Below are positions 15,375 to 54,796 of a DNA stretch of 64,000 nucleotides, piece after piece (the stretch's first letter is position 1; each line of letters begins with the position of its first letter). Origin of the DNA: a virus; IMG/VR virus record IMGVR_UViG_3300013103_000001, positions 1-64,000 of that record. The stretch is one strand, 5' to 3'. Under the pieces are notes generated by a model. That model made no database searches and had not been told where the DNA came from. It saw only the letters and a list, made by a program, of their open reading frames with translations. The translations under genes were made by a program, and so were the position numbers.

Positions 15375-15836
15375 TCAGTCCATTAATTTTAAGAAAATAG
15401 GGCTGTGAGAAAGCTTAGTCGAGAGGTATCTCTCTTCATCCTCAGACAAGAGGCCCATACGCACTAGAGCGTCAAGATCTGGGCTTTCTTTGATCTCCCA
15501 TTCGTCCATCCAATCTAGTTTTTGGTCCACAAACATAGGTTCGACAGTAGAAAAATTATACTCGAATATTTTCATGAACTCCTTTGTGTCTTTGTCTAAC
15601 TTTGCCCACTCTTCCTTGAATTTTTCAGGGAATTTTTCTGCACTTTGTAAGAGCTCGTCTAACTCACAATTAAATAACTTCGTACCTCCTGAGTACGCAG
15701 TCACAGTACCATCTGCTTCTATAGCAAACTTGAGGTCGTTTATTTCTTTCTCTAATGCGGACCTCGCTAAGTTTATTACTGAGAGAACTGGCTTTATACT
15801 AGCTTCTAAGTTCTTTGTACGGCTCGGCTTTGACAT
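15375..15836 (-). CDS. SKP-tagged protein, mostly helical, unknown function
   Basis: The start is the ATG at 15834-15836, four nt after GTGAT. It gives MSKPSRTKNLEASIKP, one of the twelve proteins here with the shared basic N-terminal peptide. The remaining 140 residues are helical and acidic, with no recognised motif. It heads a short operon with the beta-rich protein downstream. A TATA-like stretch lies near 15846-15862. Confidence 0.65.
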   Translation of the reverse strand: MSKPSRTKNLEASIKPVLSVINLARSALEKEINDLKFAIEADGTVTAYSGGTKLFNCELDELLQSAEKFPEKFKEEWAKLDKDTKEFMKIFEYNFSTVEPMFVDQKLDWMDEWEIKESPDLDALVRMGLLSEDEERYLSTKLSHSPIFLKLMD

Positions 15837-15939
15837 TTTAATCACTTTATATGTTTTATGATATAAAGCAATTAATAAATCTATCTCAAAAAAAAGAATT
15901 TGGAGCTCGCGCCAAATGTATGTAGGGGGATTCTGAGTA

Positions 15940-16100
15940 TAAAAATAAAAAAAGAGGGAGGATTTCGGACGCGAGTTTCTCCTTGAGCGCAGTCTTTCGA
16001 GCTAGAGCGCTCGCATGACCTTTGTGAGGCGCTTTCGTCCCAGAGCCTGCGTGCAGCTAACGACAAAAAAAAGAAGTGATACACGCAAGTCTCTTTCATA
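15940..16100 (-). ncRNA. Candidate structured RNA in a GC-rich intergenic stretch
   Basis: The stretch 15837-16174 has no convincing protein. A minus-strand promoter (TTTATATATGACC near 16120-16132, with the TGTTCAAAAAA element at 16141-16151) points into a segment much richer in G and C than its surroundings. This segment can form stems such as CGAGC/GCTCG near 15998-16013 and ends in a T-rich tract near 15935-15955. High GC plus own promoter plus T-run is the pattern of archaeal small RNAs. A poor 72-residue frame beginning near 16099 is the alternative. Confidence 0.35.
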
Positions 16101-16151
16101 TTAATCAATACACAACTGGTCATATATAAACTTTTCTATCTTTTTTGAACA
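16101..16151 (-). promoter_or_regulatory. TGTTCAAAAAA-type promoter
   Basis: On the minus strand TGTTCAAAAAAG (16151-16140) is followed by GATAGAAAAG and the TATA box TTTATATATG near 16120-16132. This is one of five promoters with the same arrangement. It reads toward the GC-rich candidate RNA. Confidence 0.5.
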
Positions 16152-16174
16152 GATAAGAGCCAAAAATGCGGCTT

Positions 16175-17188
16175 TCAAGCAGTGGCCTCCGATTTTGAGC
16201 GCGGTATCCCGGCTATTGGAGGAGCGGACCCTAGCTCTTTTTTCAAGCGGAGCACAGCGCGACTCAAATCGAGGGGTCTGGTTATCGGGAAGCGCTTTTC
16301 GAGTTTTTGGAGCGGGTCTATTACTATTAAATTAGTGTTAGGGACAGTTATAAGAAATGGGAACGGCCCTTTATGTTTTTGGAGAGGAGGAGAGCGAGTT
16401 ATTCGAGTTTTCAAAGAGTCTTTCAAGAGCAAGAGGAAATAGTCAATTCCTTTGAATTTAGGGAGAGACCCTAAGAGAGAGAAAAGGGAGAGAAATTTTT
16501 TAGGAGAGTATATATCTTTGATGCATATTGAAGTCGAGCTATCGAAAAAGAAACTTAGTCTAGAGTCGATAACCCTAGCTAGGTCTGTGAGGACAGAGTG
16601 CAGAGTCGAGGTGTCTTCACTCTCGAACTCTACCTTTAAGAACGGCGAGAAGTGCTTATCGAAATAAAAATGAGGAAAGCTGATCTTAAAGCGCTCGCAT
16701 AGCTCTGCTCTCTCTTTAGAGTATATCTTTTTATTTAGTTTAGAGATATACTCGTCGAGCTCGTCGTGCACGTCGACTGCTCCTCTCGCTAACTCTAAGA
16801 GCGCGTTTTGAGGAGCGTTGACAGCAGGAGTCTTCGCAGCAGCTTTGCCCGCAGCGTAGAAGAACTCAGGTTTCGTCCTCTGGGAAGCGTCGCTTAAAGC
16901 TATCTTGAATATCCAAAAAATAGAGATAAATTGCAGAGTAGGGACTTCTGGACGAGGGACATAAGCTGTGTCGTTTTTGTCGAAAATGAGCTCGACTTTG
17001 ACTGAGTCTCTACTTTCGTCTTTAAAGACCTCTTCGACTCGAGACATTAAGCGACTTATCGCGAGCTCTCTTACTTGTGTGAAGTCCCTTTTGTCTACTA
17101 GAGCGACGAGTTCTTTGCCTCTTATCACTAGTTTAACGAGGTGTGACTCTAAGACTTCAGGGATTAGAGCTTTGTCTAGTTCGACCAT
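16175..17188 (-). CDS. Unknown protein sharing a C-terminal module with the tandem paralogs
   Basis: The ATG at 17186-17188 overlaps the upstream stop as TGATG. The 337-residue product has no recognised enzyme motif. Near residues 225-245 it contains SPKKFLSLFSLLGSLPKFKGI, which matches the module P-x-x-F-x-x-L-C-x-x-L-G-x-x-P-K-[IV] found in the six tandem genes at 22.9-29.4 kb. This links it to that family, although it lacks the N-terminal basic tag. It is cotranscribed with the tagged gene at 17188-17487. Confidence 0.65.
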   Translation of the reverse strand: MVELDKALIPEVLESHLVKLVIRGKELVALVDKRDFTQVRELAISRLMSRVEEVFKDESRDSVKVELIFDKNDTAYVPRPEVPTLQFISIFWIFKIALSDASQRTKPEFFYAAGKAAAKTPAVNAPQNALLELARGAVDVHDELDEYISKLNKKIYSKERAELCERFKISFPHFYFDKHFSPFLKVEFESEDTSTLHSVLTDLARVIDSRLSFFFDSSTSICIKDIYSPKKFLSLFSLLGSLPKFKGIDYFLLLLKDSLKTRITRSPPLQKHKGPFPFLITVPNTNLIVIDPLQKLEKRFPITRPLDLSRAVLRLKKELGSAPPIAGIPRSKSEATA

Positions 17189-17487
17189 CACCTAAAAGAC
17201 ACTCCAACGTCGTACAAAGTCTTGTCAGAGGGTTTAGGGTAAATAATTATATACTCAGTCAAAATACCGTATTTTTTTGCGTCCTCTGGCTCTACTAAGA
17301 CGTAAAGTTCCTTTATTTTGCCTTTAAAATCGGCAGTGTGACTCGTGAGGACTCCTTTTACTGAAATCCCTGGAGAGAGCTCTACTATTACTTTGTTAGT
17401 CGGACAGCTGTCGAGAGCTGTTTCTATAAGAGGGATCGAAGCTTTCTCCTTTCGTGGAGAGGAGCGAGATTTTTTTGGTCTAGACAT
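17188..17487 (-). CDS. SKP-tagged small beta-rich protein
   Basis: The start ATG at 17485-17487 follows GTGATCGAT and gives MSRPKKSRSSPRKEKAS, the shared basic N-terminal peptide. The remaining 80 residues form a beta-rich domain (VIVELSPGISVKGVLTSH, then LYVLVEPEDAKKYG) of unknown family. It overlaps the next gene as TGATG, so the pair is translationally coupled. Confidence 0.7.
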   Translation of the reverse strand: MSRPKKSRSSPRKEKASIPLIETALDSCPTNKVIVELSPGISVKGVLTSHTADFKGKIKELYVLVEPEDAKKYGILTEYIIIYPKPSDKTLYDVGVSFR

Positions 17488-17529
17488 ATCGATCACTAAA
17501 TATATTTATGGAAAAGAGATATAAAAAAG

Positions 17530-18264: not shown

Positions 18265-18328
18265 TAATTAAAAAAAAGAAAAATAGATATTTTAATATTT
18301 TTATATATTTCTGTCAAGTCAAAGGAGC

Positions 18329-19763: not shown

Positions 19764-19776
19764 GTAATTAAGACAC

Positions 19777-20772: not shown

Positions 20773-20777
20773 ACATT

Positions 20778-21469: not shown

Positions 21470-21483
21470 CGAGAGGAGGAGCA

Positions 21484-22317: not shown

Positions 22318-22932
22318 ATGAAAATAGTGATCTACGGGCGAGTCTCTACTGACTTGCAAGACATAAAGCCTCAAATAGAAGAGCTGAAAGAGTACGCTTT
22401 AAAATTAACAGATGAAAAAAACATCAAAATTTTATACGACATAGAGAGCGGAGCAAACTCAAAAAGAAAAGATTATGAGAGCTTAAAAGAGCTCGTCTTC
22501 AAAAAAAAAGTGGACTTAGTCTTAGTTTGGAAACTGGATAGGCTCGCGAGAAACGTAAGAGAGCTGATAGATTTTTTCACTTTATTAGACGAAAACGGAG
22601 TTAATATAAAAATCTATACCCAAAACATTGACACTACGACTCCTACAGGTAAATTAATGTTCTATATAGTCGCTGCTTTCGCTGAGTTTGAGAGGGACTT
22701 GATCCGAGAGCGGATCAAATTGGGGATGCGGAGGACTGAAAAAAAAGTCGGGAGAGCGAGAATTTCAGACGATACGATAAAACAAATATATTTGCTGAGA
22801 AAAAAAGGGAAGAGCTACTCTCAAATAACAAAAGAACTCGAAGTCTCAAAAGGGACTGTTGCTCGATATATTAGGGCAATAGAAACAATTAATATGGTCG
22901 TTAGGTTTTTGTTTAGACCTCTGAATCTATAA
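22318..22932 (+). CDS. Small serine recombinase (resolvase/invertase family)
   Basis: The catalytic domain starts MKIVIYGRVSTDLQD with Ser10 as nucleophile. It has the downstream LVLVWKLDRLARNVRELIDF and AAFAEFERDLIRERIKLGM helix, then a C-terminal helix-turn-helix (KKGKSYSQITKELEVSKGTV). The ATG at 22318 is chosen because the family begins here; an upstream in-frame ATG would lie over the TATA box. The 204-residue length fits resolvases and IS607-type or phage invertases. It is one of four plus-strand genes and its 3' end overlaps the converging gene by 20 bp. It may resolve genome multimers or mediate inversion or integration; no clear crossover site was found. Confidence 0.92.
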   Translation: MKIVIYGRVSTDLQDIKPQIEELKEYALKLTDEKNIKILYDIESGANSKRKDYESLKELVFKKKVDLVLVWKLDRLARNVRELIDFFTLLDENGVNIKIYTQNIDTTTPTGKLMFYIVAAFAEFERDLIRERIKLGMRRTEKKVGRARISDDTIKQIYLLRKKGKSYSQITKELEVSKGTVARYIRAIETINMVVRFLFRPLNL

Positions 22933-24412
22933 CGAGGCACGCTACTTCTTCTTTAGGGAGGTTTTTCAATTTTGGGACTCTCCCTAACAGTTCTGAGAGC
23001 GCTTTGAAATTTCTTGGGTGTAAAGGGAAGGACTTATCGTCGTCTAGTGACTTTTCTAAACCATAACTTTCGAGCTGCGACTGGAGTATAGGGTCGTTTA
23101 CGAAGATAGCGTTGTTCTCTGGGCGGTAGTTTAATTTTTCTTCGATTTGAGCATAGTTTAAATCAGGAGGGCCGAGCCTCGCGTTCGCGTCAGCTATTAT
23201 TGCACCAGGTGACTGGGTAACTTGTCCTATTAACTTTAGTTTTTTGAAGAGCTTTTTGTGGTCCATTCCAATTATTGGAGTGACGTAGCCTAGAGTTTTG
23301 AAGAGCCTCAAGAGGATATGTAGGTAATTAGTATTACCGACAACGGTGTACGGGACTTCAGGCTTAAGTATTATCGGGACTTCTTTCAAGTCAATAGAAC
23401 AGTCTTTGAGTAAAATAAGGTTAACTGTAGTAGCTACTTTGTCTTCTTTTCCTCCAAAACTAGCTGCGACTAGCTTTATGGGAGGGTCGGGGTTGTAAGG
23501 AATTTTCGTCCAAGCTGCTGCTTTTTTGATTACTTCTTCTTTGTCGACTTTCTCCATCACGTCCCGATTTGAGTCGCAGAAAAGCGTGAAACGAGCAGTC
23601 TTTTTCTCTGGTCGGAACCCAGACTCTTTACAGAACGGGGCGAAGACTTCAGGTCGGTGGAAGTTAGGGACGAATAGACTGTCTTTGGAGTTGAGAGTGA
23701 AACACACGTCTTTGTATTGGTAGAACCTCTCGAGGAAGTCTACGAACTCTTCTTTCTTAGTCTTTTTGAACTTTATTGCTGCTGCGTTGAGTGCTGGGAT
23801 GTACACTGTGACCTTTTCTATGTCATTTCCTAGAGCGTAGTCAGACTCAATTAAGCTTTCGAACGTCTTCAACCTCTCGTGGAGAGGAGCGGTGAACTGA
23901 AAAAAACAAGGAAAGTACGCCACAGAGCTGGGTACGTAGCGTAGAGCGTTTAAAATAGCGGCGAGAGTATCAGGAGATGCAGGGATGTCAAAAATTGACT
24001 TTATTTTTTTCCCTAGGTACGAAGATATCCGGTAGGTCAGGTACCTTACTTTTTCTTCGGGGAGAGGAGGGTCGCCTTCTATAGGCTCGACGATGAAGTC
24101 TTCGCCGTTATACTCTATGGTAATGCGAGACAAGTAGTCGTCGCCGTCTTCGAAGAGCCTGCTTAAAGACTCTCCGACTGCTACGTTGAGTTTTTTTTCC
24201 ATCATATATTTATTAGCAGGTTTTTCTAATTTGAGGTATACTTCTCTTTTTTTGAAGTCTAATACTTCTTCGAAAGGAGGGAACCCTACTCTCGCGAGGT
24301 CTTCTCTCGTGAGAGAAGAGACTGCTCCCACTATATTTTTGTCGTGTATTTCAGTTGGCTTTTTAGTCTGTTTTTTTGAGCTTTTTATCTTTTTGGAGGA
24401 AGGTTTTGACAT
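22913..24412 (-). CDS. SKP-tagged tandem paralog A1 (about 500 residues)
   Basis: Third and last of three tandem ~500-residue paralogs. It begins MSKPSSKKIKSSKKQTKK, the shared basic tag, followed by D-x-x-I-x-x-AV and a beta-rich core (VYLKLEKPANKYMMEKKL). It contains three copies of a module ending in F-x-x-[FL][CS]-x-x-x-G-[FRY]-x-P: EVFAPFCKESGFRP, LHILLRLFKTLGYVTP and NFKALSELLGRVPKL. GGTGATT precedes the ATG. No known family was recognised. The tag, tandem copies and repeated module suggest a DNA-binding or virion-internal protein made in quantity. Confidence 0.75.
   Translation of the reverse strand: MSKPSSKKIKSSKKQTKKPTEIHDKNIVGAVSSLTREDLARVGFPPFEEVLDFKKREVYLKLEKPANKYMMEKKLNVAVGESLSRLFEDGDDYLSRITIEYNGEDFIVEPIEGDPPLPEEKVRYLTYRISSYLGKKIKSIFDIPASPDTLAAILNALRYVPSSVAYFPCFFQFTAPLHERLKTFESLIESDYALGNDIEKVTVYIPALNAAAIKFKKTKKEEFVDFLERFYQYKDVCFTLNSKDSLFVPNFHRPEVFAPFCKESGFRPEKKTARFTLFCDSNRDVMEKVDKEEVIKKAAAWTKIPYNPDPPIKLVAASFGGKEDKVATTVNLILLKDCSIDLKEVPIILKPEVPYTVVGNTNYLHILLRLFKTLGYVTPIIGMDHKKLFKKLKLIGQVTQSPGAIIADANARLGPPDLNYAQIEEKLNYRPENNAIFVNDPILQSQLESYGLEKSLDDDKSFPLHPRNFKALSELLGRVPKLKNLPKEEVACLVIDSEV
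23565..23580. repeat. Copy of the dispersed CGATTTGAGTCGCAGA 16-mer
   Basis: This 16-mer recurs exactly at 40425-40440 in an unrelated gene and in a different reading phase. It belongs to the dispersed CGATTTGA motif described in the findings. Confidence 0.8.
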
Positions 24413-24418: not shown

Positions 24419-25924
24419 TCACCAATATCCCATTGTGAGGCACGCTATCTCCTCTTTTGAGAGCCCTTCGACTTCAGGGACTGTTTGGAGCACTTCACAC
24501 AGCTTATTAAAGTCTGATGGGTTCGCCCACAAATTTCTCTTAGAGCTGATATAGCCTCTTGCTATCAATTCGTTTTTAACTTTATCTTCAATAATTATTT
24601 TGCCGTTGCTATATTTGACTTTGGAGCCGCGGTATTCCTCGTCTGGGAGGCCGAACGACTGCTTAGTCCTCTCGATGACGTCAGTAGGGTCTTCGACTAT
24701 GTCGACTAGGTTCGAGAGTATGCTGTGCATCCTGCGATAAGGGACTCCTGTGATTGCTTTCGGGAACCCCAAGACTTTAAAAGTCTTGTAGAGGACTAAT
24801 AAGTTAGACATACCGCTGACTTCGAGGAGCTTCCCGTTTTTTTGCGAACAAGAGACTCCTTCTTTCCGGAGGAGCGTCTCGACCTCTTCTTTGTCGCGCT
24901 GGTCTATGTCGTCGAGGTAGACGAAAAAGTGGTCGTTCACGTTGCTATTTAAGAGGTGGATGTCTGTCTTCCAATATGAAAAATCCGCGACAGGTTCGCG
25001 AAAGTTAACAGCGAAATTCGCTAGAGCTGAAGTTATATTTCGTATCTTTTTAGCCCTGAGCGTTTTTCGTTCTTCTCTAGCGAGGTCCTGTAGTCTAGAC
25101 TCCCCCATAGAGATGAGAGGAGTCAACTCGTTTACAGGGACAAAACCTGCTGCAGCACAGAACGTGAGGAACACTTTAGGGTCTTGGACATCAGGGACAA
25201 TCACGTGAGAGTCTGTCACAAAGAGCTCTACGTCGCTCCCAAATGAGAGCTCTTCGAGCATGTTAGAGAGCTCCCCACCTATTGGCTCTTTGGACTTTAG
25301 TATTAAAGCTAGCCTACCATCTCGACTGACTGTGGAGTGTACGTAGTCGAAGAGGTGTTTAGACCCTCTCGAGAATTTGTGTTCTTTGACGAACTCGCGC
25401 GCTTTTTCGACGAACTCTTTAGTCTCTTTCTCGATGTCCAAGAGGTCTCTAATCAAGCTGGGGTCCACGCCATTTGGTACGCAGTCTAGACCATACATAA
25501 TAGCAGGGAGAGCACGTCGGCTATAAGGGATTTCGTCTAAGTCAACTTTTTTAGTATTTAGAGCTGTAGCGATCTTTCTCTCTACTGTGAGTCTTTTAGG
25601 GTCTATCATCTTCGCACTTACTTTGAAAGCGTCTTTCTCTTTGTCGTAAGTTATAGACGCTTTTTTTTCTAAATAGAAATAGTCAGTAAAAAACTTTTGG
25701 TTGAGGTCTCTTACGATGTTCTCTAAAATAGTTTTTTTAACCAAGTCTTTAGAGTTAAGAAAGGACTTTAGAAAAATTTTCTTCTCTTTGAGGTCTATTC
25801 CTAAAGAGCCCACAAAGGGAGAGAGGCCTAAGTACGAGACTGCGTCTATGATATCTCTATCTCTCACAATTATAGGTTTTTTATTCTCTTTTTTAGGCGG
25901 TTTATAACTCTTCGGTCTAGACAT
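24419..25924 (-). CDS. SKP-tagged tandem paralog A2 (about 500 residues)
   Basis: The ATG at 25922-25924, four nt after GTGATT, gives MSRPKSYKPPKKENKK; the frame is open 36 nt further but the tag fixes the start. The core aligns by eye with its two neighbours: IDLKEKKIFLKSFLNSKDLV, PKVFLTFCAAAGFVPVNE, LLVLYKTFKVLGFPKAI and the C-terminal DFNKLCEVLQTVPEVEGLSK. The common order shows divergence after duplication. Function is unknown. Confidence 0.75.
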   Translation of the reverse strand: MSRPKSYKPPKKENKKPIIVRDRDIIDAVSYLGLSPFVGSLGIDLKEKKIFLKSFLNSKDLVKKTILENIVRDLNQKFFTDYFYLEKKASITYDKEKDAFKVSAKMIDPKRLTVERKIATALNTKKVDLDEIPYSRRALPAIMYGLDCVPNGVDPSLIRDLLDIEKETKEFVEKAREFVKEHKFSRGSKHLFDYVHSTVSRDGRLALILKSKEPIGGELSNMLEELSFGSDVELFVTDSHVIVPDVQDPKVFLTFCAAAGFVPVNELTPLISMGESRLQDLAREERKTLRAKKIRNITSALANFAVNFREPVADFSYWKTDIHLLNSNVNDHFFVYLDDIDQRDKEEVETLLRKEGVSCSQKNGKLLEVSGMSNLLVLYKTFKVLGFPKAITGVPYRRMHSILSNLVDIVEDPTDVIERTKQSFGLPDEEYRGSKVKYSNGKIIIEDKVKNELIARGYISSKRNLWANPSDFNKLCEVLQTVPEVEGLSKEEIACLTMGYW

Positions 25925-25929: not shown

Positions 25930-27429
25930 TCACTTTTGTTTTATTTCGAGTAAAAGGCAAGCGAGTTCTTCTTTTGGGAGGCCATTGACCTCAGGGACTC
26001 TCCCGAGGACCTCGCACATAGCTCTAAGGTTTTCAGGAGTCAAGTCCTCGACCATAGTAGCAGAAGGGTTCGCTGCTCCGAGGATTTTGTCCAGCCCTCT
26101 CACGATTATTTTGTCGCTCTTAGAGTCGTACTCTGCAATGACTCCTTTGTACTTCGGGTTAGGAGGGCCAAAAGAGTTAGACACTCTATCTATCACTCCG
26201 TCTGGGTCCGCTACCGCGTTTAAAATCGAGGAAACAAGTCCTAAAGTCTTTGAGTAAGGGACCCCGATTATAGGCTTGACTATCCCGAGTGCTTTGTAAA
26301 CTTTGTAGAGCGTAGAAGGGCTGTCGAGGTCTCTAACCTCGAGGAAGTTGTAGGACCAGTCTGTGTGTTGAATAGTACCAAAGTTGTCGACTGCTGTTTT
26401 TATCTTGTCTTTTACAGATGGAGGTTCGGTATCTGCTATGTATATTATGAAAGAATCTTTATTAGTACGTATAAAAGCTATGCCATCTTCATACGGAGCG
26501 AGCTCAGGGCTCCCAATTTTTTGTCTTATTTTTTCGAGTTTAGAGTAAAGTTCCTTTTTTCTTTCCTTCAATTTTTTTATGTCTGGAGTCTTGAACTCTT
26601 CGAACGCAAAGCTCGGCAAGAACCTATTATTTGGGATAAAACCGAAAACTGCGCAGAACGCGACGAAAGTGTCTATCTCGTCTGCACTATAAAAAGAGAT
26701 GCTTCGGCCTGGAGGGTAAAAGTACCAGTCGTTGCCGTAGCCCATAAGGGAGAGATTTGTGAGAGAAGAGAGGACACTCCTGTTAGTTTTTTTCAACTTG
26801 AAGTCCATTGTCTTTTTCAAGAAATAATACTGGTCGAAAGAAAAATTTTCTACGAAGCTTCGCTTGTCTCCAGAAAGTCTCGCGTTTTCGATAAACTGTT
26901 CGACTCTCGATTTGAAAGTTTTTGTCTTTTTCGCGACGGCTATGAGGTATTTAGAGAGGTCTGGGTCGAACGCTTTAGGGACGCAGTCCATCGCAGTAAA
27001 GACAGCAGCGAGGAGCCTCGGAGACGGCTTAGTCCTGATCACAGAGGCTTTTGTCTTGTGGAGAGCTGACCGGATCTCTCTCGACATCCTTTGTTCGTCG
27101 TGTAGCGTCAAGTTAGGTATAGCTAAGGAGACTGTGTCAGACTTTTTGTCGTAGGTGAGCGTCGCGCGGTCTTTGAAGTCGAAAGTGTCTTTGAACACCT
27201 CTTCGTTGAGTTTGTCTGCGATGTTTCTCGTCAGGATTTCTTTTAGAGCAGCTTTGTTAGGCACTTTCGATTTGAGGAAAAATTTTTTGCTCTTGAGGTC
27301 GATTACAGGTGAAACTACAGGAGACGTGAAGTCGAGAGCTTCGAAAGCGTCTATAATCTCTTTGTCGTCTATCAAGACTTCTCTCTCAGTTTTCTCTCTT
27401 TTTTTCGACTTGCGGCTCGGCTTCGACAT
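25930..27429 (-). CDS. SKP-tagged tandem paralog A3 (about 500 residues)
   Basis: The start at 27427-27429 gives MSKPSRKSKKREKTERE. The core has IDLKSKKFFLKSKVPNKAAL, a central DTFVAFCAVFGFIPNN, LYKVYKALGIVKPIIGVPY and a C-terminal NLRAMCEVLGRVPEVNGLPK. It is the first of the three ~500-residue paralogs. A 17-mer of the dispersed motif family lies at 26216-26232. No enzyme motif is evident, and long charged helices separate the modules. Confidence 0.75.
   Translation of the reverse strand: MSKPSRKSKKREKTEREVLIDDKEIIDAFEALDFTSPVVSPVIDLKSKKFFLKSKVPNKAALKEILTRNIADKLNEEVFKDTFDFKDRATLTYDKKSDTVSLAIPNLTLHDEQRMSREIRSALHKTKASVIRTKPSPRLLAAVFTAMDCVPKAFDPDLSKYLIAVAKKTKTFKSRVEQFIENARLSGDKRSFVENFSFDQYYFLKKTMDFKLKKTNRSVLSSLTNLSLMGYGNDWYFYPPGRSISFYSADEIDTFVAFCAVFGFIPNNRFLPSFAFEEFKTPDIKKLKERKKELYSKLEKIRQKIGSPELAPYEDGIAFIRTNKDSFIIYIADTEPPSVKDKIKTAVDNFGTIQHTDWSYNFLEVRDLDSPSTLYKVYKALGIVKPIIGVPYSKTLGLVSSILNAVADPDGVIDRVSNSFGPPNPKYKGVIAEYDSKSDKIIVRGLDKILGAANPSATMVEDLTPENLRAMCEVLGRVPEVNGLPKEELACLLLEIKQK
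26216..26232. repeat. Copy of the dispersed GCGTTTAAAATCGAGGA 17-mer
   Basis: The same 17 bases occur at 63404-63420 in the giant surface protein gene, where they are read in another phase. Confidence 0.8.
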
Positions 27430-27437: not shown

Positions 27438-28097
27438 TCACTTTTTGTAGTACGTGTTTATAGTCTTCTTTACTTTAGACTCTAAATAGCTCGTGTCTAC
27501 TTTTTCAATTTTTGGGAAAAAACCTAGACCTTTACATAATTTGTTAAGGGCGCTCGGCTTGAAAATGTTTTCAATCCTCCACCTCCTGAGGTCTCGGTCA
27601 TATGTCCCGTTAGTTGGGCTGTACCTAAACTCTCCAAAGAAGTTAAATAAGTCCCAATTATAGTCTGGGAGTAGCTTGCTTACGTAGAGGACGTCTATCT
27701 CTTTGCCTGCAGGCGTCTTAGTTTTTTCGTACCAGAACCTCAACTTTCGCCTCCACTCGTCCGAGTAAGGTCTTTTCTTTATTAATTTCCTAAATTCAGA
27801 AATGACTGGGCTCTGGTAGAAGCGGTCGTCAATAACATCCTGTACAGAGCTCCCTTCGAGGATAGCTTTAGCTACTTCTGGGAGGATAGCAGAGACAGAA
27901 GGGTCTCCTTCAAATTGTATCTTAGTATGCATTTGTTTTTTCTCTAAGTCTACGTGATAGTCTATCTCAGTCACATCGATGGAGAGTGCTCGTTCTATCA
28001 GTCTTTTAAATCCTTTTGGGACGTAGAACGGGACTGACTCTGAGACGAGAGCTTTCTTTTTCTTTCCTTTCCGGACTGACTTAGTTGGTTTAGACAT
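27438..28097 (-). CDS. SKP-tagged tandem paralog B1 (about 220 residues)
   Basis: The tag start MSKPTKSVRKGKKKK is the second of two adjacent ATGs; the first overlaps the upstream stop as TAATG. The core shows YHVDLEKKQMHTKIQFEGDP and a C-terminal TYDRDLRRWRIENIFKPSAL followed by NKLCKGLGFFPKI. The pattern W/Y-D-x4-x-W-x-[IL]-x-N-x3-P-x2-[FL]-x2-LC resembles the HARP-type DNA-binding domain of SMARCAL1-like proteins. The similarity is by eye. Confidence 0.75.
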   Translation of the reverse strand: MSKPTKSVRKGKKKKALVSESVPFYVPKGFKRLIERALSIDVTEIDYHVDLEKKQMHTKIQFEGDPSVSAILPEVAKAILEGSSVQDVIDDRFYQSPVISEFRKLIKKRPYSDEWRRKLRFWYEKTKTPAGKEIDVLYVSKLLPDYNWDLFNFFGEFRYSPTNGTYDRDLRRWRIENIFKPSALNKLCKGLGFFPKIEKVDTSYLESKVKKTINTYYKK

Positions 28098-28099: not shown

Positions 28100-28777
28100 T
28101 TAAACTTTTTTCTCTTTATAATATGTACTTAAGACTCTTTTTACTTTGCGTTCTAAATAGGAGGGGCTTATACCTTCGATTTTAGGGAGGAACCCGAGGC
28201 CTACACATAGCCTGTTAAATACACTAGGTAAGAAGGGGTTTTCTAGAGTCCAACTTGTAGTGTTTTCGTCATATGTAGCCTGAGTTTTTTTCCAACCTAC
28301 AAACCGGGACATAAAAGCTTTAAAGGGTTCTAAAAAATCCCATTTTTTAGGCGCAGTTACAATAAGGGTGTCTCTAAAGCCTCCATTCATTTTGACAGGC
28401 TTGTATTTAAACCTCACGCGGCGCTCTGCTATGTCAGTTATATAATTTCTCTTTAACAACTTTCGGTATTCAGCGAGAATAGGGCTAGACTCTTGAGAGT
28501 AATAACTGCTCATAACGTGGCCAACAGGACGCCCGTCAATGATGAGCTTGATCGCTCTGGGGAGGAAACTCAAGACCCCAGGGTCTCCTTCGAACTCTAC
28601 ATCAGTATATATCCTCTTGTCTTCTAAGTCTATGTGCTGGTCCATTTTCTTTATTTTAATGCCGAACTCCTTTTCTAGCGTCTCTTTGAGTTCTTCTGGG
28701 ATATAGTAGCCTATAGCTCCAGAGAGGACGCTCGTTTCTTTCTTTTCCTTCTTAATTTTTTTCGACGGTTTAGACAT
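28100..28777 (-). CDS. SKP-tagged tandem paralog B2 (about 225 residues)
   Basis: It begins MSKPSKKIKKEKKETSVLSG and carries DQHIDLEDKRIYTDVEFEGD, then TYDENTTSWTLENPFLPSVF and NRLCVGLGFLPKIEGIS. It is clearly paralogous to its two neighbours over the whole length, with the same basic C-terminal helix (LERKVKRVLSTYYKEKKV). Unknown function; probable nucleic-acid binding inferred from basic ends and the HARP-like module. Confidence 0.75.
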   Translation of the reverse strand: MSKPSKKIKKEKKETSVLSGAIGYYIPEELKETLEKEFGIKIKKMDQHIDLEDKRIYTDVEFEGDPGVLSFLPRAIKLIIDGRPVGHVMSSYYSQESSPILAEYRKLLKRNYITDIAERRVRFKYKPVKMNGGFRDTLIVTAPKKWDFLEPFKAFMSRFVGWKKTQATYDENTTSWTLENPFLPSVFNRLCVGLGFLPKIEGISPSYLERKVKRVLSTYYKEKKV

Positions 28778-28783: not shown

Positions 28784-29383
28784 TTACTCCAAAATTTTTT
28801 CTATAATACTTTCGAGGGCTTCTTCAGATAGCCCATCGATTTTCGGGATAAACCCAAGACCTTTACATAATTTATCAAAAATATCTGGTTTGCGGAAGTT
28901 GTCTATTTTCCACGTTTTATCACTAGGGTCCCACCTTCTTTTAGTCTCCTTCCAAGGGAGGGACTTTATAAAGATATTAAACTCAGGGTCGTACCTGCTC
29001 GGGAGAGTACCTCCTATAGCGAGGACGTCCGCGTACTTGTTAGGAGCTACTTCGACTCTTAGAGACTTGAAAAATAACCTCCGCTCCCAATCGTCTGACG
29101 AGTCGTTCTTTTCTAAAGACACTGAGTATTCTTTAATAGGAGAAGTGGAAGCAATTGCTTCGATCGAGTTTACAAGAGTGTTCGAGACTGGGACGTCGCC
29201 TCTAAACTCGATAGTAGTATACATTTTTCTTTCAGCTAAGTTTATACACTCGTATATTTTCAATATTTTAATGCCTAGAATTCTCTCTATTCTTTTTTTA
29301 GCTTTGTCTGAGATAGAGAGAGGGACGTTAACAGAGCTCGTATCTTTTCCTTTTTCTTTAACTTTTCGCGACGGCTTAGACAT
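28784..29383 (-). CDS. SKP-tagged tandem paralog B3 (about 200 residues)
   Basis: It begins MSKPSRKVKEKGKDTSSVNV and has ECINLAERKMYTTIEFRGDV, then RRWDPSDKTWKIDNFRKPDI and FDKLCKGLGFIPKIDGLS. It is the upstream-most and shortest of the three B paralogs. The start overlaps the end of the membrane protein gene upstream by 8 bp. Confidence 0.75.
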   Translation of the reverse strand: MSKPSRKVKEKGKDTSSVNVPLSISDKAKKRIERILGIKILKIYECINLAERKMYTTIEFRGDVPVSNTLVNSIEAIASTSPIKEYSVSLEKNDSSDDWERRLFFKSLRVEVAPNKYADVLAIGGTLPSRYDPEFNIFIKSLPWKETKRRWDPSDKTWKIDNFRKPDIFDKLCKGLGFIPKIDGLSEEALESIIEKILE

Positions 29384-29651
29384 ACCCTACCACCAGCACG
29401 TAAATTATATATAGTAGAAACGAGAGGAAGAGGACGATAGACGCTACTAGAAACTTCCTCGAGTTTAACCTAACTGAGACTACACAAAAGAACAAAAATA
29501 AAACTAATAGAAAGACTAGGACTAAAAGTGTAAGAAAGGGGTCATTGTAGTAGCTATCTATGATGTTAAATATAGAGAATATCTGAAAATAATCTAGAAC
29601 TATTTCCAAACTTGCAAAAATAAAAAAGAGCAAAAAGATTATAGCTATCAT
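29376..29651 (-). CDS. Small membrane protein with three hydrophobic helices
   Basis: The 91-residue product is almost entirely hydrophobic: residues 1-25, 33-55 and 64-90 form helices separated by short polar loops. It lies between a winged-helix regulator (4-bp overlap) and the tandem B paralogs (8-bp overlap). Small hydrophobic proteins of this kind include capsid proteins of spindle-shaped viruses, but nothing in the sequence proves this role. Confidence 0.65.
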   Translation of the reverse strand: MIAIIFLLFFIFASLEIVLDYFQIFSIFNIIDSYYNDPFLTLLVLVFLLVLFLFFCVVSVRLNSRKFLVASIVLFLSFLLYIIYVLVVGYV

Positions 29652-30028
29652 TTTTTATTCCCTCCTTTAATAGTCAAAATGACTCGGGACATAGATACCC
29701 ATTTTTTTCCTCTGTCAGTGAGTTCGTACCTAGTGTGTTTGTTTTCTCGCTTTCTCGTCACGAGCCCTTTGTCTGCGAGGCGAGCGAGGAGGTTATAGAC
29801 TTGGTTCATGCTCTTGAAGTGCTCTCCCAAAGACTTAGCTACTCCTTTCGCTCTCGCTGGTTTTTTACTTAAGAACTTCAAAATTATCCCTCTTACGGAA
29901 GATGGGTCTATCCCAAAGAGAGACTTTTCTAGATATCTTTTTTCTGCTTTTTTGACTTCTTCCTCAGTGAAAATATATTTTTTAATTTCTACATAATCTC
30001 GTTTCTTTTTTCTAGACGGCTGACTCAT
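29648..30028 (-). CDS. SKP-tagged winged-helix DNA-binding protein
   Basis: The ATG at 30026-30028 overlaps the upstream stop as TGATG and gives MSQPSRKKKRDYVEIKK, a Q variant of the shared tag. A winged helix follows: ILKFLSKKPARAKGVAKSLG (helix-turn-helix), QVYNLLARLADKGLVTRKRE (recognition helix) and the wing NKHTRYELTDRGKKW, typical of MarR/ArsR-like or PadR-like regulators. GGTGGTGT precedes the start. It may regulate the tandem paralog operon or coat DNA. Confidence 0.8.
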   Translation of the reverse strand: MSQPSRKKKRDYVEIKKYIFTEEEVKKAEKRYLEKSLFGIDPSSVRGIILKFLSKKPARAKGVAKSLGEHFKSMNQVYNLLARLADKGLVTRKRENKHTRYELTDRGKKWVSMSRVILTIKGGNKK

Positions 30029-42577: not shown

Positions 42578-42992
42578 TTATCCCTTTCTTTTTCATAATT
42601 TCTCTCATTTCTTTATTAATTAAGAAGCTATACCTGTTTCGGTCTGTGTATGGGTCGCTCAGAAATATTAATGTCTTCTTTTCCTTTTCCTCTTCTGAGA
42701 GAGAGTCCCACGCAGACTTTTTTATTTTGAAGTATTTCGATATTTCTTTCACAAACTCTTTCTCTACTTGTTCTTTTTCGAGCTTAGTCAACGGGAGCAA
42801 TCTTTTTTTCTTTTCCAATTCACTTAGTTTCTTTAATCCGTTATCTGTTATCTCTAAGAGCCCTTCAATTTCTCTTGCTAACTTCTGTTCTTCGATCATG
42901 TCTAATATTTCTTTCGACATCGCCCATTCCTTTGGCAGAGGCCGGCTTTTTAAACATTTTAGGAAAATATATAAGTCAAATTCTCCTCTCAT
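42570..42992 (-). CDS. Unknown helical protein following the DNA polymerase
   Basis: The ATG overlaps the polymerase stop as ATGA, so it is coupled to it. The 140-residue protein is highly charged and helical, with a winged-helix-like first half (LLEITDNGLKKLSELEKKKR) and a second half rich in Lys/Glu. It converges with the plus-strand gene, overlapping by 8 bp. A polymerase accessory role is possible from position only. Confidence 0.6.
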   Translation of the reverse strand: MRGEFDLYIFLKCLKSRPLPKEWAMSKEILDMIEEQKLAREIEGLLEITDNGLKKLSELEKKKRLLPLTKLEKEQVEKEFVKEISKYFKIKKSAWDSLSEEEKEKKTLIFLSDPYTDRNRYSFLINKEMREIMKKKGIIK

Positions 42993-45796
42993 TTAACCCA
43001 CTCTGTTATCTTTCTTTGTCCTCTATAAAAAGTCTCCCAAGATATGTCTAAAGCTTCGAACACTGGAGTCATCACCGATTTGATACATTTTCTGACTATT
43101 TCCTCAGTGTCGAGCGTTTTTATGAACTCTTTTGGGATTTGAGATTCGTCTGTGAAACCAAAAACATCAGTCTTTCCGCGGACAATTCTCAAGGTCTTTT
43201 TTTCTCCGTTTAATTCAAATGTTAGGACTCTCGGTTTCAGAGGGATGAGCAAAATTTTGTCTCCTGTTTTAAAGTTAGTGCCGAGGTATGCATTAGAAGT
43301 TAGAGCGGCCCGGACGTGGATAGGGATGCCTTTTGTTTGTTTTTTAGAGCTTGTGTCTAAAGAATACTTTTCTATATTCGCGACGAGGTTCTTAGGAGTC
43401 GCTATATCAGAGATATTATACTCCATCTTCTTGATCCTCTTGACTATTTTTTTTAGCCCTCGGAGGATCGCGTCAAGGTCTATGTTAAGGTGGACTAATT
43501 CTAAAAATCTTTTTTGGACTTCTCTCGAAATTTTTGGAGTATCTTGTTTAATTGCTTCCATGCCTACTTGTCTGAACTCGTCTACCCAATACCCTTCGTT
43601 CCAAACTCTGCGAAAAGCGTATTTCTTCTTCTTGTTTTGGAGGAACGAAGTGTAGAACTGTTCGAAAGCTATTTTTACCATCATGTCCTTCTCTTTGACG
43701 TAGAACCTCGACGCAAGAAAAATTTTATAGGCTTTGTTCACGTTTTCTACTAGAAAATTTACGACTTTAAAAGCGTCTCCTCCATCAGGCTTCCTAAAGC
43801 CTGCAGGGACTCTTATAAATGTGCTATCAGTGTCTCCATACAGTACTTTGATCTCTCTGTCTAGTTTTATGTTTGGGTATTTCTTTTTAAGACGAGAGAC
43901 TATTCTTTTCGACTCAAAGAACTCTTTAGTAAATTTTATTATCTCTCGACAACTCCCTGTAATTGAAGGAGGGATATCTTCGTCATAGAGTCTAAAACTT
44001 GAGTAAGCAAATACTCCATACGTCGCATTGATTGGTTTCTTGTAGATTTTTTGCTCTTCATAGTACATTTTAAATTTTTCGTTACATTCGACTTCGGTCT
44101 TACACTCTTCGCACTTCCCTACAGGTCGGTGTTTTTTCATCATAGCCTTCATCTCCATCCTCCTGTCGATGAGCGGCAAGAGGACTTTTCTCGTTATCCC
44201 GTCTCTAGAGTTCCTAAACCATACTCTAGTCGCAGAACGAGTATAACTTATCTCAGGGAACTTCCCAAGAATTGGGACAAGAAGATGTGAGAACTTATGA
44301 AATTGGTCCAATTTCTTGATTATCTTCCGGTCTCGGACCTTCATTTCAGGAGAGAAGTTCCCTCCAATGATGATCGAAGGGTAAAACGACGAAAGGTCAG
44401 CTACGGCGACATTAAAGTGACGGCCTGGGACTGGGTCAAAAGTTATTGCTCCTTTGTAATGAGTTTTCTCTCGCTTTCTCCTAGATGGGAGGACTACACC
44501 TTCTTCTCGCGCTCTCTTCAAGAATATCATGTCTAAAAACCTGCTTGGAGCGACTACGTCTTTAAATTTGCAACCAAAAGCTCGTCTCTCAGCGTCTAGC
44601 TGAGCTATAATCCCTCTCTTTTTGTCTATCTCGACGCAGAGTTCGACGTCATAGAGGTTGTACTTCAAACTCTTTACAAAATTTTTGTCCCACGTCTCTC
44701 CGACTCCGTGGACTTCTAACTTCCCTATTTTGAACTCGAAATTACCGACGAGGTCTAAGGAAAACCTCCTCAAGAATTTCGCAGAGTAAGAAAACCTCCT
44801 ATACATCTTCAAGAGGTCGACGACGACTCTGCCTCCTATCTTCACTTCATTAAAGTATTCAGTATATTGTTTAATATATACTTTCCTCAACGGGCTTATC
44901 CCGTCTACCTCTAACCCTAAAATACGGCACCTCGCGTGGAGGTACGGGATATCGAACTTTTCTATGTTCCACCCCGTAATCACGTCTGGGTCTTGTATTT
45001 TAAAAAAATTTATAACGTTTTCTAGCATCTCGACTTCGTTTTTGAAAATAAAGACCTTCCACTTATGGTCCCTACCAGATATCCTCCCTTTAAACTTGCG
45101 ACAAAGTTTAGCTGGGAGTACTTTTCTGTGCCAAGTGAAAGTAAAATAAGTGTCTGTAAAGTTGTCGTAAAACGTCACTACTATTAGAGGGGCTATCGGG
45201 TCTTTAAAGTCAGGGAACTTCGGAGCACAGACACGCTCGTCGACTTCTATATCAAAATAACAGACTCTAATGTTCGGAGCGACTAAAATTGGCGAAACTT
45301 CACTTAAAAGGACGTTTTTCTTGTCAGGGACTCTGACTCCTCCTCGGATGTCGAGGTCGAGGAGGACTCTTCTGTCTGCTCTTATGTCTGCTTCAAAAGT
45401 TATAATATGCTCGCTAAGGTTAGAACGGTTTTCTTTATTTTTTTCAGAAATCTCAGCTAATAACGAAGCCATAGCTCTATCGGATTCACAACTTATCTTT
45501 AATACCTTCTCTCCAAAGAAACCTTTGAGCTCTGTAGGTTCCTTATTGACATTATTTACTTTATCTTTATCTTTTTCTCTTATGTAGAAGTAAGGCTTAA
45601 AGTCAGTGATCGTCACTGAACGCCTTTTTTTACTCCTTACCTCTCTCCCAAAGAGGTAGACGAGAGTCTTCTCTTTCTCGTCGAACCCTGCTCTACACGA
45701 AGTGTGGAGAGCTTTAGCTATAAACTCTTTTCCACACTTTTTACATTTATAAAACTTGAGCGTCTCGCTCTCTATATGACTAACAGACATGTCCAT
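42989..45796 (-). CDS. polB: Family B DNA polymerase
   Basis: A zinc-finger-like CKKCGKEFIAKALHTSC opens the protein, which is uncommon for this family. Exonuclease motifs are CYFDIEVDE (Exo I), VITGWNIEKFDIPYLHAR (Exo II) and YNLYDVELCVEI (Exo III). Polymerase motif A is DLSSFYPSIII, motif B KKPINATYGVFAYSSFRLYD, motif C YGDTDSTFI, and the later KKKYAF matches the KxY motif. All catalytic residues are present, so a proofreading replicative polymerase is expected. It is about 935 residues with no intein. The start ATG at 45794-45796 follows GTGATCGA. It begins right after FEN1, with which it is probably co-expressed. Confidence 0.96.
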   Translation of the reverse strand: MDMSVSHIESETLKFYKCKKCGKEFIAKALHTSCRAGFDEKEKTLVYLFGREVRSKKRRSVTITDFKPYFYIREKDKDKVNNVNKEPTELKGFFGEKVLKISCESDRAMASLLAEISEKNKENRSNLSEHIITFEADIRADRRVLLDLDIRGGVRVPDKKNVLLSEVSPILVAPNIRVCYFDIEVDERVCAPKFPDFKDPIAPLIVVTFYDNFTDTYFTFTWHRKVLPAKLCRKFKGRISGRDHKWKVFIFKNEVEMLENVINFFKIQDPDVITGWNIEKFDIPYLHARCRILGLEVDGISPLRKVYIKQYTEYFNEVKIGGRVVVDLLKMYRRFSYSAKFLRRFSLDLVGNFEFKIGKLEVHGVGETWDKNFVKSLKYNLYDVELCVEIDKKRGIIAQLDAERRAFGCKFKDVVAPSRFLDMIFLKRAREEGVVLPSRRKREKTHYKGAITFDPVPGRHFNVAVADLSSFYPSIIIGGNFSPEMKVRDRKIIKKLDQFHKFSHLLVPILGKFPEISYTRSATRVWFRNSRDGITRKVLLPLIDRRMEMKAMMKKHRPVGKCEECKTEVECNEKFKMYYEEQKIYKKPINATYGVFAYSSFRLYDEDIPPSITGSCREIIKFTKEFFESKRIVSRLKKKYPNIKLDREIKVLYGDTDSTFIRVPAGFRKPDGGDAFKVVNFLVENVNKAYKIFLASRFYVKEKDMMVKIAFEQFYTSFLQNKKKKYAFRRVWNEGYWVDEFRQVGMEAIKQDTPKISREVQKRFLELVHLNIDLDAILRGLKKIVKRIKKMEYNISDIATPKNLVANIEKYSLDTSSKKQTKGIPIHVRAALTSNAYLGTNFKTGDKILLIPLKPRVLTFELNGEKKTLRIVRGKTDVFGFTDESQIPKEFIKTLDTEEIVRKCIKSVMTPVFEALDISWETFYRGQRKITEWVK

Positions 45797-51912: not shown

Positions 51913-51924
51913 TTTTTAATCACC

Positions 51925-52812
51925 TCAAAAGTCGAGAGTGGGCTCAATTACAGCTATCCTGTCGAGAATTTTCCCGAAGCTAGGCTTCACAATCTCTTCA
52001 TTGAAATTAAGCCCTGCTCTCGAACCGCGGACAGTCCCGTACCTAGTCGCGACACCACCAACGTATTTGATGTTCATTTCTAAAATCAAGTCAAGCCAGT
52101 AGCCTGTTGAGTAATGCCAAACTGGAGCGTATGCTCCAGTCTTCTGTAGGCGTTGTTTCCCAGTATCTGTGGGGAGGACATCCCATACCTCTTTCACTTT
52201 TGCAGTCACTATAACGTTACAGTGGACCCTTCGGATCAATTTCATGAGAGACTCCCACTTGTCGTTCCTCCAATACCAATCGGAAGGCCTGACGTCAGCT
52301 TGGAACCCTGTCTTTTTAGGCCCCAATTTTAAGACTTCTAAGCGGAGGTAAGAGTTAACCCAGCTATAGACGTCAGAGAGAGAGTCTATAACGATGGTCC
52401 CTTCCTTTTCGTCTGCTAATTCAACTAAAGTGTCCCAAAAAAGTTCGAAGGACTTGCACGGGTCGACTTCTTTTTCATCGTTTTCGACATATACAGGGCA
52501 CACTCTCACTTTCTTTGCCTTAAACTGTTTTTTATAAAAACGTGGGAGCCAGCTCGCAGCATTCTCTGTATCGATGATAGACGTCACGACTCCTGGAGGG
52601 ATTTTAGGGCCAACTACGGAATCAGTCCACTTTTCTACGAGAGAAGCAGAAGCAGAAAATATGCTTTTCCCGACTTTTTCTCTACCGATGACTGCCATCT
52701 TAATTCCAGCAGTTTTGGTTATAGCTGCTTTATCATAATACGTCCATTCTCCTCTTATTTTCTCAGAAATTTTTTCAACTGGTTCTCTAGCGGCTTGCTC
52801 CATCCAACCCAT
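51925..52812 (-). CDS. RecA-like recombination ATPase (Sak4-like)
   Basis: Walker A is GREKVGKS (43-50), Walker B TIVIDSLSDVY, with a P-loop fold typical of AAA_24/Sak4 proteins, which are phage recombinases of about this length. VIVTAKVKEVW is a sensor-like strand. It overlaps the SSB candidate upstream as TGATG. In phages Sak4-type ATPases act with a cognate SSB in single-strand annealing; the same pair is found here. Confidence 0.75.
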   Translation of the reverse strand: MGWMEQAAREPVEKISEKIRGEWTYYDKAAITKTAGIKMAVIGREKVGKSIFSASASLVEKWTDSVVGPKIPPGVVTSIIDTENAASWLPRFYKKQFKAKKVRVCPVYVENDEKEVDPCKSFELFWDTLVELADEKEGTIVIDSLSDVYSWVNSYLRLEVLKLGPKKTGFQADVRPSDWYWRNDKWESLMKLIRRVHCNVIVTAKVKEVWDVLPTDTGKQRLQKTGAYAPVWHYSTGYWLDLILEMNIKYVGGVATRYGTVRGSRAGLNFNEEIVKPSFGKILDRIAVIEPTLDF

Positions 52813-53930
52813 CAGTCAAAATCCTCCTCTGTTAACTGAATGACTTCATCACGACTTTCCTCAACTTTCTCTGGCTCGAGGTCCTCTTTTTTTATTTCTT
52901 GGACTTCTGGTGCTTTGATTAGATATTGTGGGTAGGCGTATATTCCGAGGACACTTATGACTATTTCATCAGGGTTGCTTTTTGTCCCTTTTGAAGTCTG
53001 CCCGCAGACCATCAGCTTACTCCCACTAGAGAAGTTCGGTTTGATAAACTCTGGGACGTAGCACTTCACTGGAGGTAAGTCTTTCTCGTCTAACTTTTCG
53101 TCATCAAGCCACATAGTCCAGCTCCCAAAAGGACTTATTGAAGGGTCTAGAGACAGGACAAATGCGTCGAAGACTACGAACCGATTAAAGTCGTCTTTAA
53201 ATGCGTTGTGCCACTCGGCCAGCATGTCTATTTTACATTTGTGGTCTTTTAACGCTGTAGAGAAAAGAGTTTTTGGAGGAGGGACTTCTATATTTTTTGC
53301 AGGTTGAAATTCTGTTAACGCTGAGTAATTTAGGATAATCGGGTTTGACGTCACGTCGCTTTCAATTGCAAAAAACTCAACAGGTACAAATGTTGGGATC
53401 TTTGGAAGTATATAATCAGAGCTCTTAGGGTCCGCTGGACTACGAGATATGATGAGGACAAAAGGCTTCCAGTCCAATTTATCTGTAGACTTTAGTGGAG
53501 AGCGGCTAGCTACTCCGAAGACTTTGAAGAGAAAGTTCTCTTTTAGTGGGAGCCCATAGTTCCTGTTTTTAGTCCCTGTCGAGAAGAACTCGACGTTGTC
53601 TAGAGGAGTCCCGTCTTCGTCTGTGTACCCTAAACTTATTGCTTTCTGAGGGTCTCTCTTGAAGAGCTGTTTTGCAGCTTTCCAGCGTTTGTTATTAGTG
53701 TCAAAAGGCTTCGATCGACCAAAGACTACTCCACAGTATCGAGCAGCAGTAGAAATAGCTCGACGCCTGTATTTTGCGCGGACTTGCTGCCTCGCGACTT
53801 TTTCCTGGTCTTCTTCTGAGAGGTCGGGGAAAAGGCTTTTTGTGTCTTCCAGTGTTTTTAAGTACTCTTTTTTGAGAGCTTCGATCGGCTCTTTGAACTT
53901 TTCACTCCATTTTTTTAAAAAATCGTTCAT
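52812..53930 (-). CDS. Candidate single-stranded DNA-binding protein with acidic C-tail
   Basis: The ATG at 53928-53930 is chosen because GAGG and a TATA box (TTTTTATATTTTTATA) lie just upstream; a longer frame would run through that promoter. After a helical N-terminus the central 250 residues are beta-rich and OB-fold-like. The C-terminus is a long acidic tail ending IQLTEEDFD, the hallmark of SSB proteins. It is immediately upstream of the RecA-like ATPase. There is no convincing sequence match to a named SSB family, so the call rests on tail, composition and context. Confidence 0.55.
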   Translation of the reverse strand: MNDFLKKWSEKFKEPIEALKKEYLKTLEDTKSLFPDLSEEDQEKVARQQVRAKYRRRAISTAARYCGVVFGRSKPFDTNNKRWKAAKQLFKRDPQKAISLGYTDEDGTPLDNVEFFSTGTKNRNYGLPLKENFLFKVFGVASRSPLKSTDKLDWKPFVLIISRSPADPKSSDYILPKIPTFVPVEFFAIESDVTSNPIILNYSALTEFQPAKNIEVPPPKTLFSTALKDHKCKIDMLAEWHNAFKDDFNRFVVFDAFVLSLDPSISPFGSWTMWLDDEKLDEKDLPPVKCYVPEFIKPNFSSGSKLMVCGQTSKGTKSNPDEIVISVLGIYAYPQYLIKAPEVQEIKKEDLEPEKVEESRDEVIQLTEEDFD

Positions 53931-54037
53931 ATATATATAACCTCTACGAAATTTGGTAATAAAAAGTAGAATATAAAAATATAAAAATATTCTTTTGTGC
54001 CTCACCACAGTCAAGGAAAAAAAAATATGAGGAGCCT

Positions 54038-54796
54038 TCAGGACTCGCCGCCAGGCACCCGCTTCTTCCGCTCTTCTGGAGGCATCTTCTTCCAAGCTTC
54101 ACTGCCACGCTTACTGAGTTTCTTGATCCTCTTTTTCGCAGCTTTTCTCGCAGCTTTTTGAACTTTGCTAGGGTGAGACTTTCTATACTTCAACTTACCT
54201 ACAAGGTCCATAAACTGGTCCCAAGAAATCCCTTTATACCCGTGGTTTTTCCTGCACTTAGAAATCGCTTTGACAGCTAGCCTCATCTCTTTCTCGTTCA
54301 AAAGAGGGACGTTCTTAGGAGTTAGCTTCTCGTTTAAAGCATATTTGAACTTTTTGTGATAGGCCCAGAGGGTCGCTAAAACGAGGCGTAGTCTGAGAGT
54401 CCTCGCGTTTACACCTCTTTCTGAGAGGACCCCTCGTTCGTAATCTTCTTCGATATTTTCGAGAGTGTCTAACACCTCTGAGAGGTGGGAAAAGCGGCCG
54501 ACAGGGTCTAAGTCCTCGACGTCCCTGCCGAGGTAGAGGTCTTCTCCTTTCGGGACCCACGCGACTCTGCCTTTGTAGTCTATAGTAGGCCTCTCGACTT
54601 CGCTCTTCGCGAGGAGCTCTTCATAAGTATAGCCTGGAAAAGCGTCTTGCCAGTCGTCTGTTATCCACGTCGGAGGCATCCTAAGTTGAGCAGCAGAAAC
54701 AGTCCGGCCAAACTCGGAAGGGAGTTTTACTTTAGTTTGAGCGAGCTCTTTCCACTTTTTTCGAGCTGCTTTAATTCCTTTTTTCGGCCTAGACAT
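54038..54796 (-). CDS. SKP-tagged basic protein of unknown function
   Basis: It starts at ATG 54794-54796 after GTGATCAAG and gives MSRPKKGIKAARKKWKE, the tag. The 252-residue protein is very basic at both ends (RKSHPSKVQKAARKAAKKRI) with an acidic middle. It may bind DNA through its tails. It precedes the SSB/RecA operon but has its own promoter. Function unknown. Confidence 0.65.
   Translation of the reverse strand: MSRPKKGIKAARKKWKELAQTKVKLPSEFGRTVSAAQLRMPPTWITDDWQDAFPGYTYEELLAKSEVERPTIDYKGRVAWVPKGEDLYLGRDVEDLDPVGRFSHLSEVLDTLENIEEDYERGVLSERGVNARTLRLRLVLATLWAYHKKFKYALNEKLTPKNVPLLNEKEMRLAVKAISKCRKNHGYKGISWDQFMDLVGKLKYRKSHPSKVQKAARKAAKKRIKKLSKRGSEAWKKMPPEERKKRVPGGES

Follow-up and report, generated by a model that had tools for sequence, protein, structure and literature searches.

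A Ser-[Lys/Arg]-Pro tag at the N termini of twelve proteins of a virus with a probable Asgard archaeal host: a possible docking signal for assembly proteins

In bacteriophage T4, the first 10 residues of internal protein IPIII suffice for capsid targeting, and T4-related phages encode other basic proteins with leaders that resemble this capsid-targeting sequence (CTS) (PMC9026906). In phage SPN3US, the first 15 residues are common to gp53 and gp54 (PMC5694885). Virion proteins of another kind are known from Acidianus two-tailed virus (ATV), where the MoxR protein p618, a major component of the virion, binds the VWA protein p892 but not viral DNA and the pair works in tail development; virions of Sulfolobus monocaudavirus 1 (SMV1) hold a VWA homologue (PMC4124505). 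For jumbo phages, a role in virion assembly has been proposed for a MoxR-VWA pair with a metallopeptidase-VWA fusion (PMC7824862). Here we analyze the first 64 kb (64,000 nucleotides, the window) of the 69,423-bp linear IMG/VR virus record IMGVR_UViG_3300013103_000001, in which twelve proteins, a MoxR-type AAA+ ATPase and a VWA protein among them, begin with nearly the same peptide, hereafter the tag. Gene starts and boundaries were set by a simple script, not by a trained gene finder.

A six-frame scan of the 64 kb for a start codon followed by S-[K/R/Q]-P gave 13 matches. Twelve are genes and the only other match is a 40-codon stretch. These are the same twelve near-identical starts that had been picked out in an earlier note on this DNA, and all 12 of 12 lie on the minus strand. 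They are given here together with one untagged neighbor; genes are named below by their lower coordinate.

15375..15836, minus strand: tagged orphan of 153 aa (MSKPSRTKNLEAS), starting MSKPSRTK
16175..17188, minus strand: untagged 337-aa protein, distant member of the 500/220-aa superfamily
17188..17487, minus strand: tagged 99-aa protein (MSRPKKSRSSPRK), starting MSRPKKSR
22913..24412, minus strand: 500-aa-family paralog 1, tagged MSKPSSKK
24419..25924, minus strand: 500-aa-family paralog 2, tagged MSRPKSYK
25930..27429, minus strand: 500-aa-family paralog 3, tagged MSKPSRKS
27438..28097, minus strand: 220-aa-family paralog 1, tagged MSKPTKSV
28100..28777, minus strand: 220-aa-family paralog 2, tagged MSKPSKKI
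28784..29383, minus strand: 220-aa-family paralog 3, tagged MSKPSRKV
29648..30028, minus strand: winged-helix protein (PadR/TrmB-like), tagged MSQPSRKK
35627..37891, minus strand: VWA protein with an N-terminal metallopeptidase motif, GTG start, tagged VSKPTRRS
37897..39507, minus strand: MoxR/MDN1-type AAA+ ATPase, tagged MSKPTSKK
54038..54796, minus strand: basic orphan, tagged MSRPKKGI

Ser2 and Pro4 are invariant (12/12 each). Position 3 is Lys or Arg in 11 of the 12 proteins and Gln in one, so that the MS[KR]P consensus proposed earlier fits all but the single MSQP. Position 5 is always Ser, Thr, or Lys, and is followed by a Lys/Arg-rich run without any conserved residue. Over residues 5-20, tagged proteins average a net charge of +4.8 versus +0.05 in 42 other genes (p = 1.6e-7), which bears out the basic stretch that the earlier note described. 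It is weakest in 15375 (+2; net charge of the whole protein, -10), while 54038 is Lys/Arg-rich at its C terminus too. Positions 3 and 5 are coupled: Lys or Gln at position 3 goes with Ser or Thr at position 5 in 9/9 cases, and Arg with Lys in 3/3 (Fisher p = 0.0045). The resulting SKP-S/T and SRP-K forms cut across paralogy, with 24419 and the unrelated 54038 both in the R form. Eight genes (15375, 17188, 24419, 25930, 27438, 29648, 35627, and 37897) have a mechanical open reading frame (ORF) that extends upstream of the tag start. The tag therefore helps to fix gene starts, as had been suggested, including the GTG at 37891.

Nine of the twelve tagged genes lie within 22.9-39.5 kb, in the company of genes for membrane proteins and glycosyltransferases; the recognized polymerase, primase, and nucleases sit outside this region. 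Gene 54038 is located just upstream of replication genes, hence the tag is not limited to one cluster. Past the window, the remaining 5.4 kb of the contig gave no tagged gene call. None of the tagged proteins has a predicted membrane span, and all recognized replication, repair, nucleotide-metabolism, membrane, and secreted proteins are without the tag; the earlier statement that replication enzymes lack it thus holds for the recognized ones.

The tag is far in excess of chance. From composition, 0.02 tagged genes are expected, and with each independent family counted once, six of 54 has P ~1e-13, or 1e-7 with generous position-specific rates. When residues 2-20 were shuffled within each protein in 20,000 rounds, at most 3 tagged proteins appeared. 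As the tag had been chosen after being seen, we also used a motif-free control, counting ORFs that share any start tetrapeptide (with K = R) in 76 loci of at least 12 kb. The control loci reached one or two ORFs, and once four; the window reached 11 and a 21-kb slice of it 8. The sole control locus above two is a 21-kb viral locus (L035), in which four ORFs (2114, 6651, 12096, and 19355) start with MAKK or MAKR, a plainer kind of start. A longer tag pattern had 6 matches in 227 Asgard genomes, below the reversed control, compared with 4 in the 64-kb window. Since the pattern is rare in these genomes, the tag is not a host habit.

The earlier note had called the twelve proteins otherwise different. 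This stands for about six families, but not for all twelve proteins. The three ~500-aa proteins are paralogs of ~30% identity, and so are the three ~220-aa proteins (36-41%). A profile comparison indicated a short C-terminal region common to the two families (single-comparison E ~1e-4, probability 32-58%). Gene 16175 was placed in this superfamily with E 2e-4 by a profile built from both families, which supports the membership of 16175 but not the link between the 500-aa and 220-aa proteins. Six tagged proteins therefore fall in one superfamily. A seventh, 17188, precedes the untagged member 16175, which lies directly downstream and overlaps it at TGATG; the two may be one split (or coupled) paralog and probably belong to the same superfamily. 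We take six independent tagged families as the safe count: the superfamily (with 17188), 15375, 29648, 35627, 37897, and 54038. The predicted structure of the 220-aa family is moderate (pLDDT 76) and gave no significant fold match, and that of the 500-aa family is too poor for use. A likeness of the 220-aa C terminus to the HARP domain, seen by eye, was unsupported by Pfam and is not claimed.

Across these families selection acts mainly on the peptide, because the Ser, Lys, and Arg codons vary freely. Ser2 is encoded by TCT, TCA, TCG, AGT, and AGC, in line with genome usage (p = 0.70); codon choice for Lys3 and Arg3 also matches that of the genome. At Pro4, CCG is over-used (7 seen versus 2.1 expected; p = 0.004). 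Tagged paralogs that are only ~28-41% identical overall still match at Ser2 and Pro4. In the model of a 220-aa protein (28100), residues 1-13 fall below a pLDDT (predicted local distance difference test) of 50, and the tag is probably disordered in this family.

Two of the tagged genes encode a MoxR-VWA pair. The 37897 product is a MoxR/MDN1-type AAA+ protein (AAA_5, 3e-19; midasin as best match in the PDB) with Walker A GPAGCGKS and an acidic Walker B DE at residue 263. The VWA gene 35627 is adjacent, 5 nt apart, and its product contains a metal-ion-dependent adhesion site (MIDAS) motif, DSSGS at residue 579, and an HExxH motif of the jumbo-phage form, HEAAH at residue 85.

We favor, tentatively and as a possibility a little short of even, the reading that the tag is an N-terminal docking signal for soluble virion or assembly proteins. 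It is favored because at least six unrelated families are tagged far beyond chance, and because the codons vary while Ser2 and Pro4 stay fixed at the extreme N terminus of an otherwise degenerate leader. The leader would bring soluble viral proteins together where particles are assembled, and probably carry them into the virion. Ser at position 2 permits Met removal as a general rule; the predicted removal would leave a flexible basic arm that begins with a free Ser-[Lys/Arg]-Pro end. This end would be read by a receptor, which could be a scaffold, a shell protein, or a membrane protein of the assembly site. Invariant Ser2 and Pro4 would supply specificity, and the Lys/Arg run would strengthen binding to an acidic partner, be it DNA, scaffold, or membrane. 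The presumed clients are the assembly machine formed by the MoxR AAA+ and the VWA metallopeptidase, together with the expanded 500/220-aa superfamily, the two orphans, and the winged-helix protein. The receptor, the location, and the assembly role are inferred. A broader proposal, which we consider doubtful, is that of a virus-wide address system: a free Ser-Lys/Arg-Pro end, in SKP-S/T and SRP-K forms, would sort unrelated proteins, the assembly motor included, to a site or compartment where the virus assembles in the Asgard cell, independently of T4-type capsid targeting.

Several observations weigh against the docking reading. A virion location is unanchored, as no capsid, portal, terminase, or prohead protease is found among the proteins scanned. 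The winged-helix protein and the gene just upstream of the replication genes are tagged. The CCG excess at Pro4 hints at shared DNA ancestry or a constraint at the nucleotide level. No close relative was found for any tagged protein searched (viral contigs, species genomes, and the 227 Asgard genomes), although records very near this one may be missing from the collections covered: searches with the AAA+ protein (alone and with its homologue in HHTV-2), the 500-aa and 220-aa families, and the VWA protein returned only remote AAA+/VWA homologues, and a tag was seen on none of them. Untagged starts are present on the VWA homologue of a cyanophage-like contig (L242) and on the HHTV-2 AAA+ homologue, and no tag was seen in Asgard cellular AAA+/VWA homologues; the pair can therefore work without it. 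Tagless relatives had been named in the earlier note as evidence against a signal, and since they occur only among very distant AAA+/VWA homologues, we give them little weight. The Asgard VWA/AAA+ loci L071-L076 were considered as viruses and rejected, as they look like cellular homologues.

The main and serious rival, although we think it unlikely, is a common nucleic-acid-binding tail, a flexible arm, histone-like or protamine-like, by which viral DNA is bound or condensed, the tagged set being DNA-associated. Residues 5-20 are indeed strongly positive, the set includes the winged-helix protein and the very basic 54038, and T4 internal proteins with CTS leaders are likewise basic (PMC9026906). 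Charge alone, however, needs no invariant Ser2 and Pro4; 15375 is tagged although its basic stretch reaches only +2 and the protein as a whole is acidic, the recognized DNA enzymes of the genome have no tag, and p618, the MoxR protein of ATV, does not bind viral DNA (PMC4124505). The earlier note had offered a packaging signal and a DNA-binding tail side by side. We favor packaging because the MoxR/VWA pair is tagged, predicted membrane spans are absent, and recognized replication and membrane proteins are untagged, while the DNA tail keeps its standing as a rival. It is rather improbable that the leader spread by duplication or fusion, with a 5' cassette of ribosome site and leader codons being copied and the peptide having little or no function. 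Seven of 12 tagged genes belong to or adjoin one superfamily, similar GTGAT ribosome sites precede several tags, and the CCG excess would fit as well; against this, synonymous choice at Ser2 and Lys3/Arg3 matches genome usage, upstream bases are only weakly alike, and diverged paralogs still agree at Ser2 and Pro4. Any copying is therefore old, with the peptide kept since. The varying codons led us to reject a copied DNA leader, with identical codons, as the main cause.

AAA+ remodelers engage flexible tails, and the tag might be a grip point for the MoxR AAA+/VWA machine or a cleavage site for the VWA metallopeptidase. Machine and candidate clients share the tag, and the VWA protein has the HEAAH motif. 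We nevertheless hold this to be improbable to a still greater degree: the machine itself is tagged, the homologous pair in another virus has an untagged VWA protein, and no shared cleavage site of the sole type tested, hydrophobic-x-Glu, was found. Least probable of all is an effect of the start region on translation or protein stability, through efficient initiation, N-terminal acetylation, or protection by Pro4. The tag does sit at the very N terminus, with a Ser2 that permits Met removal, but it is a specific peptide with varying codons in a subset of genes only, its longer pattern stays below the reversed control in Asgard genomes, and the replication genes of the same virus manage without it.

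The docking reading would turn the tag into a list of candidate virion and assembly proteins in a genome without a recognizable structural gene. Protein sorting in virus-infected archaeal cells is almost unknown, and we know of no virion biochemistry for viruses of Asgard archaea.

The genome context was examined through three further genes and the relatives of one of them.

42989..45796, minus strand: family B DNA polymerase, untagged
4110..6194, minus strand: anaerobic ribonucleotide reductase (NRDD), the host indicator
55481..57130, minus strand: P-loop ATPase, untagged; Asgard genomes encode relatives
L230:15746-17707; L234:10603-12534; L236:1559-2566; L238:2695-4428: relatives of the 55481 ATPase

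Besides the polymerase, the window encodes a replication and repair set (primase, XPG/FEN nuclease, ERCC4 nuclease, DNA ligase, helicase, Sak4-type ATPase, and uracil-DNA glycosylase) and a nucleotide-metabolism set made up of the reductase and a fusion protein that joins a thymidylate kinase-like (dTMP kinase) domain to a dCMP deaminase-like one (window 49212-50147). No major capsid, portal, terminase, or prohead protease was recognized with Pfam/PHROGs when the proteins were scanned, some small ORFs being left out; the structural proteins may be too divergent for such recognition. Several long proteins have hydrophobic N termini or membrane spans. Four very large proteins (1014-1785 aa; window 2-3850, 6622-9666, and 60143-63820; record 63902-69256), two with signal-peptide-like starts and mostly without known domains, are candidate surface or virion proteins.

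The host is most likely a Helarchaeales Asgard archaeon, judging from one gene: the first 307 aa of the reductase are 79% identical to genes on two contigs of Helarchaeota genome Hel_GB_B (77.6% identity across 755 bp at the DNA level), each of the two genes being cut by a contig end. The best full-length match is from Lokiarchaeota (~57%). Gene exchange with the Helarchaeales lineage is thus seen via NRDD only. Among the matches listed for the polymerase, the best were haloarchaeal tailed viruses (~25% identity). Searching with the polymerase yielded 37 viral loci (~25% identity), which are not close relatives and in which no tag clusters were present; the tag DNA pattern in viral contigs gave one match per stretch among the matches listed. 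The 55481 ATPase family is common to several Asgard genomes (E to 3e-30) and might be a signature of one group of mobile elements in Asgard archaea. Tags were absent from the related gene module in the Asgard genomes to which 55481 led, and a viral follow-up scan found nothing. In L230 and L234, very large secreted-looking proteins are encoded close to the ATPase relatives. The C terminus of 55481 looks nuclease-like by eye, a feature described for ATV p529.

How the tag compares with phage head-targeting leaders depends on the feature considered. As in the CTS of T4 internal proteins and Alt, about ten N-terminal residues are common to divergent, often basic proteins, and the leader is separable from the folded domain (PMC9026906, PMC5694885); the tag, too, is a short N-terminal peptide on non-homologous proteins. 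It differs in being built on Ser-Lys/Arg-Pro, in being known here from genes alone, and in the gp21-type common cleavage site, which was not found in tagged proteins. Within their first 30 residues, [LIVFAM]-x-E is absent from 4 of 12 and scattered over positions 8-28 in the others. T4-type prohead machinery (gp20/21/22/23) was not detected with Pfam/PHROGs, with some small ORFs outside the scan and divergence possible. Because a common cleavage site and recognized T4 head machinery are both missing, we do not file the tag under the T4 CTS, and on the best reading, by analogy, it would work like one. The head propeptides of phiKZ and SPN3US are similar as N-terminal leaders on several inner-head proteins; in contrast to the tag, they are mostly longer than 100 residues and cleaved, and gp53 and gp54 are mutual paralogs (PMC5694885).

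The MoxR-VWA pair resembles those of ATV and jumbo phages in that AAA+ and VWA proteins are paired, here by adjacent genes, and it resembles that of group 2.2 jumbo phages in the fusion of VWA to an HExxH metallopeptidase (PMC7824862). Unlike in those systems, both members of the pair carry a virus-wide tag. If the tag is a sorting signal, the principle behind the T4 CTS would have a second, independent example.

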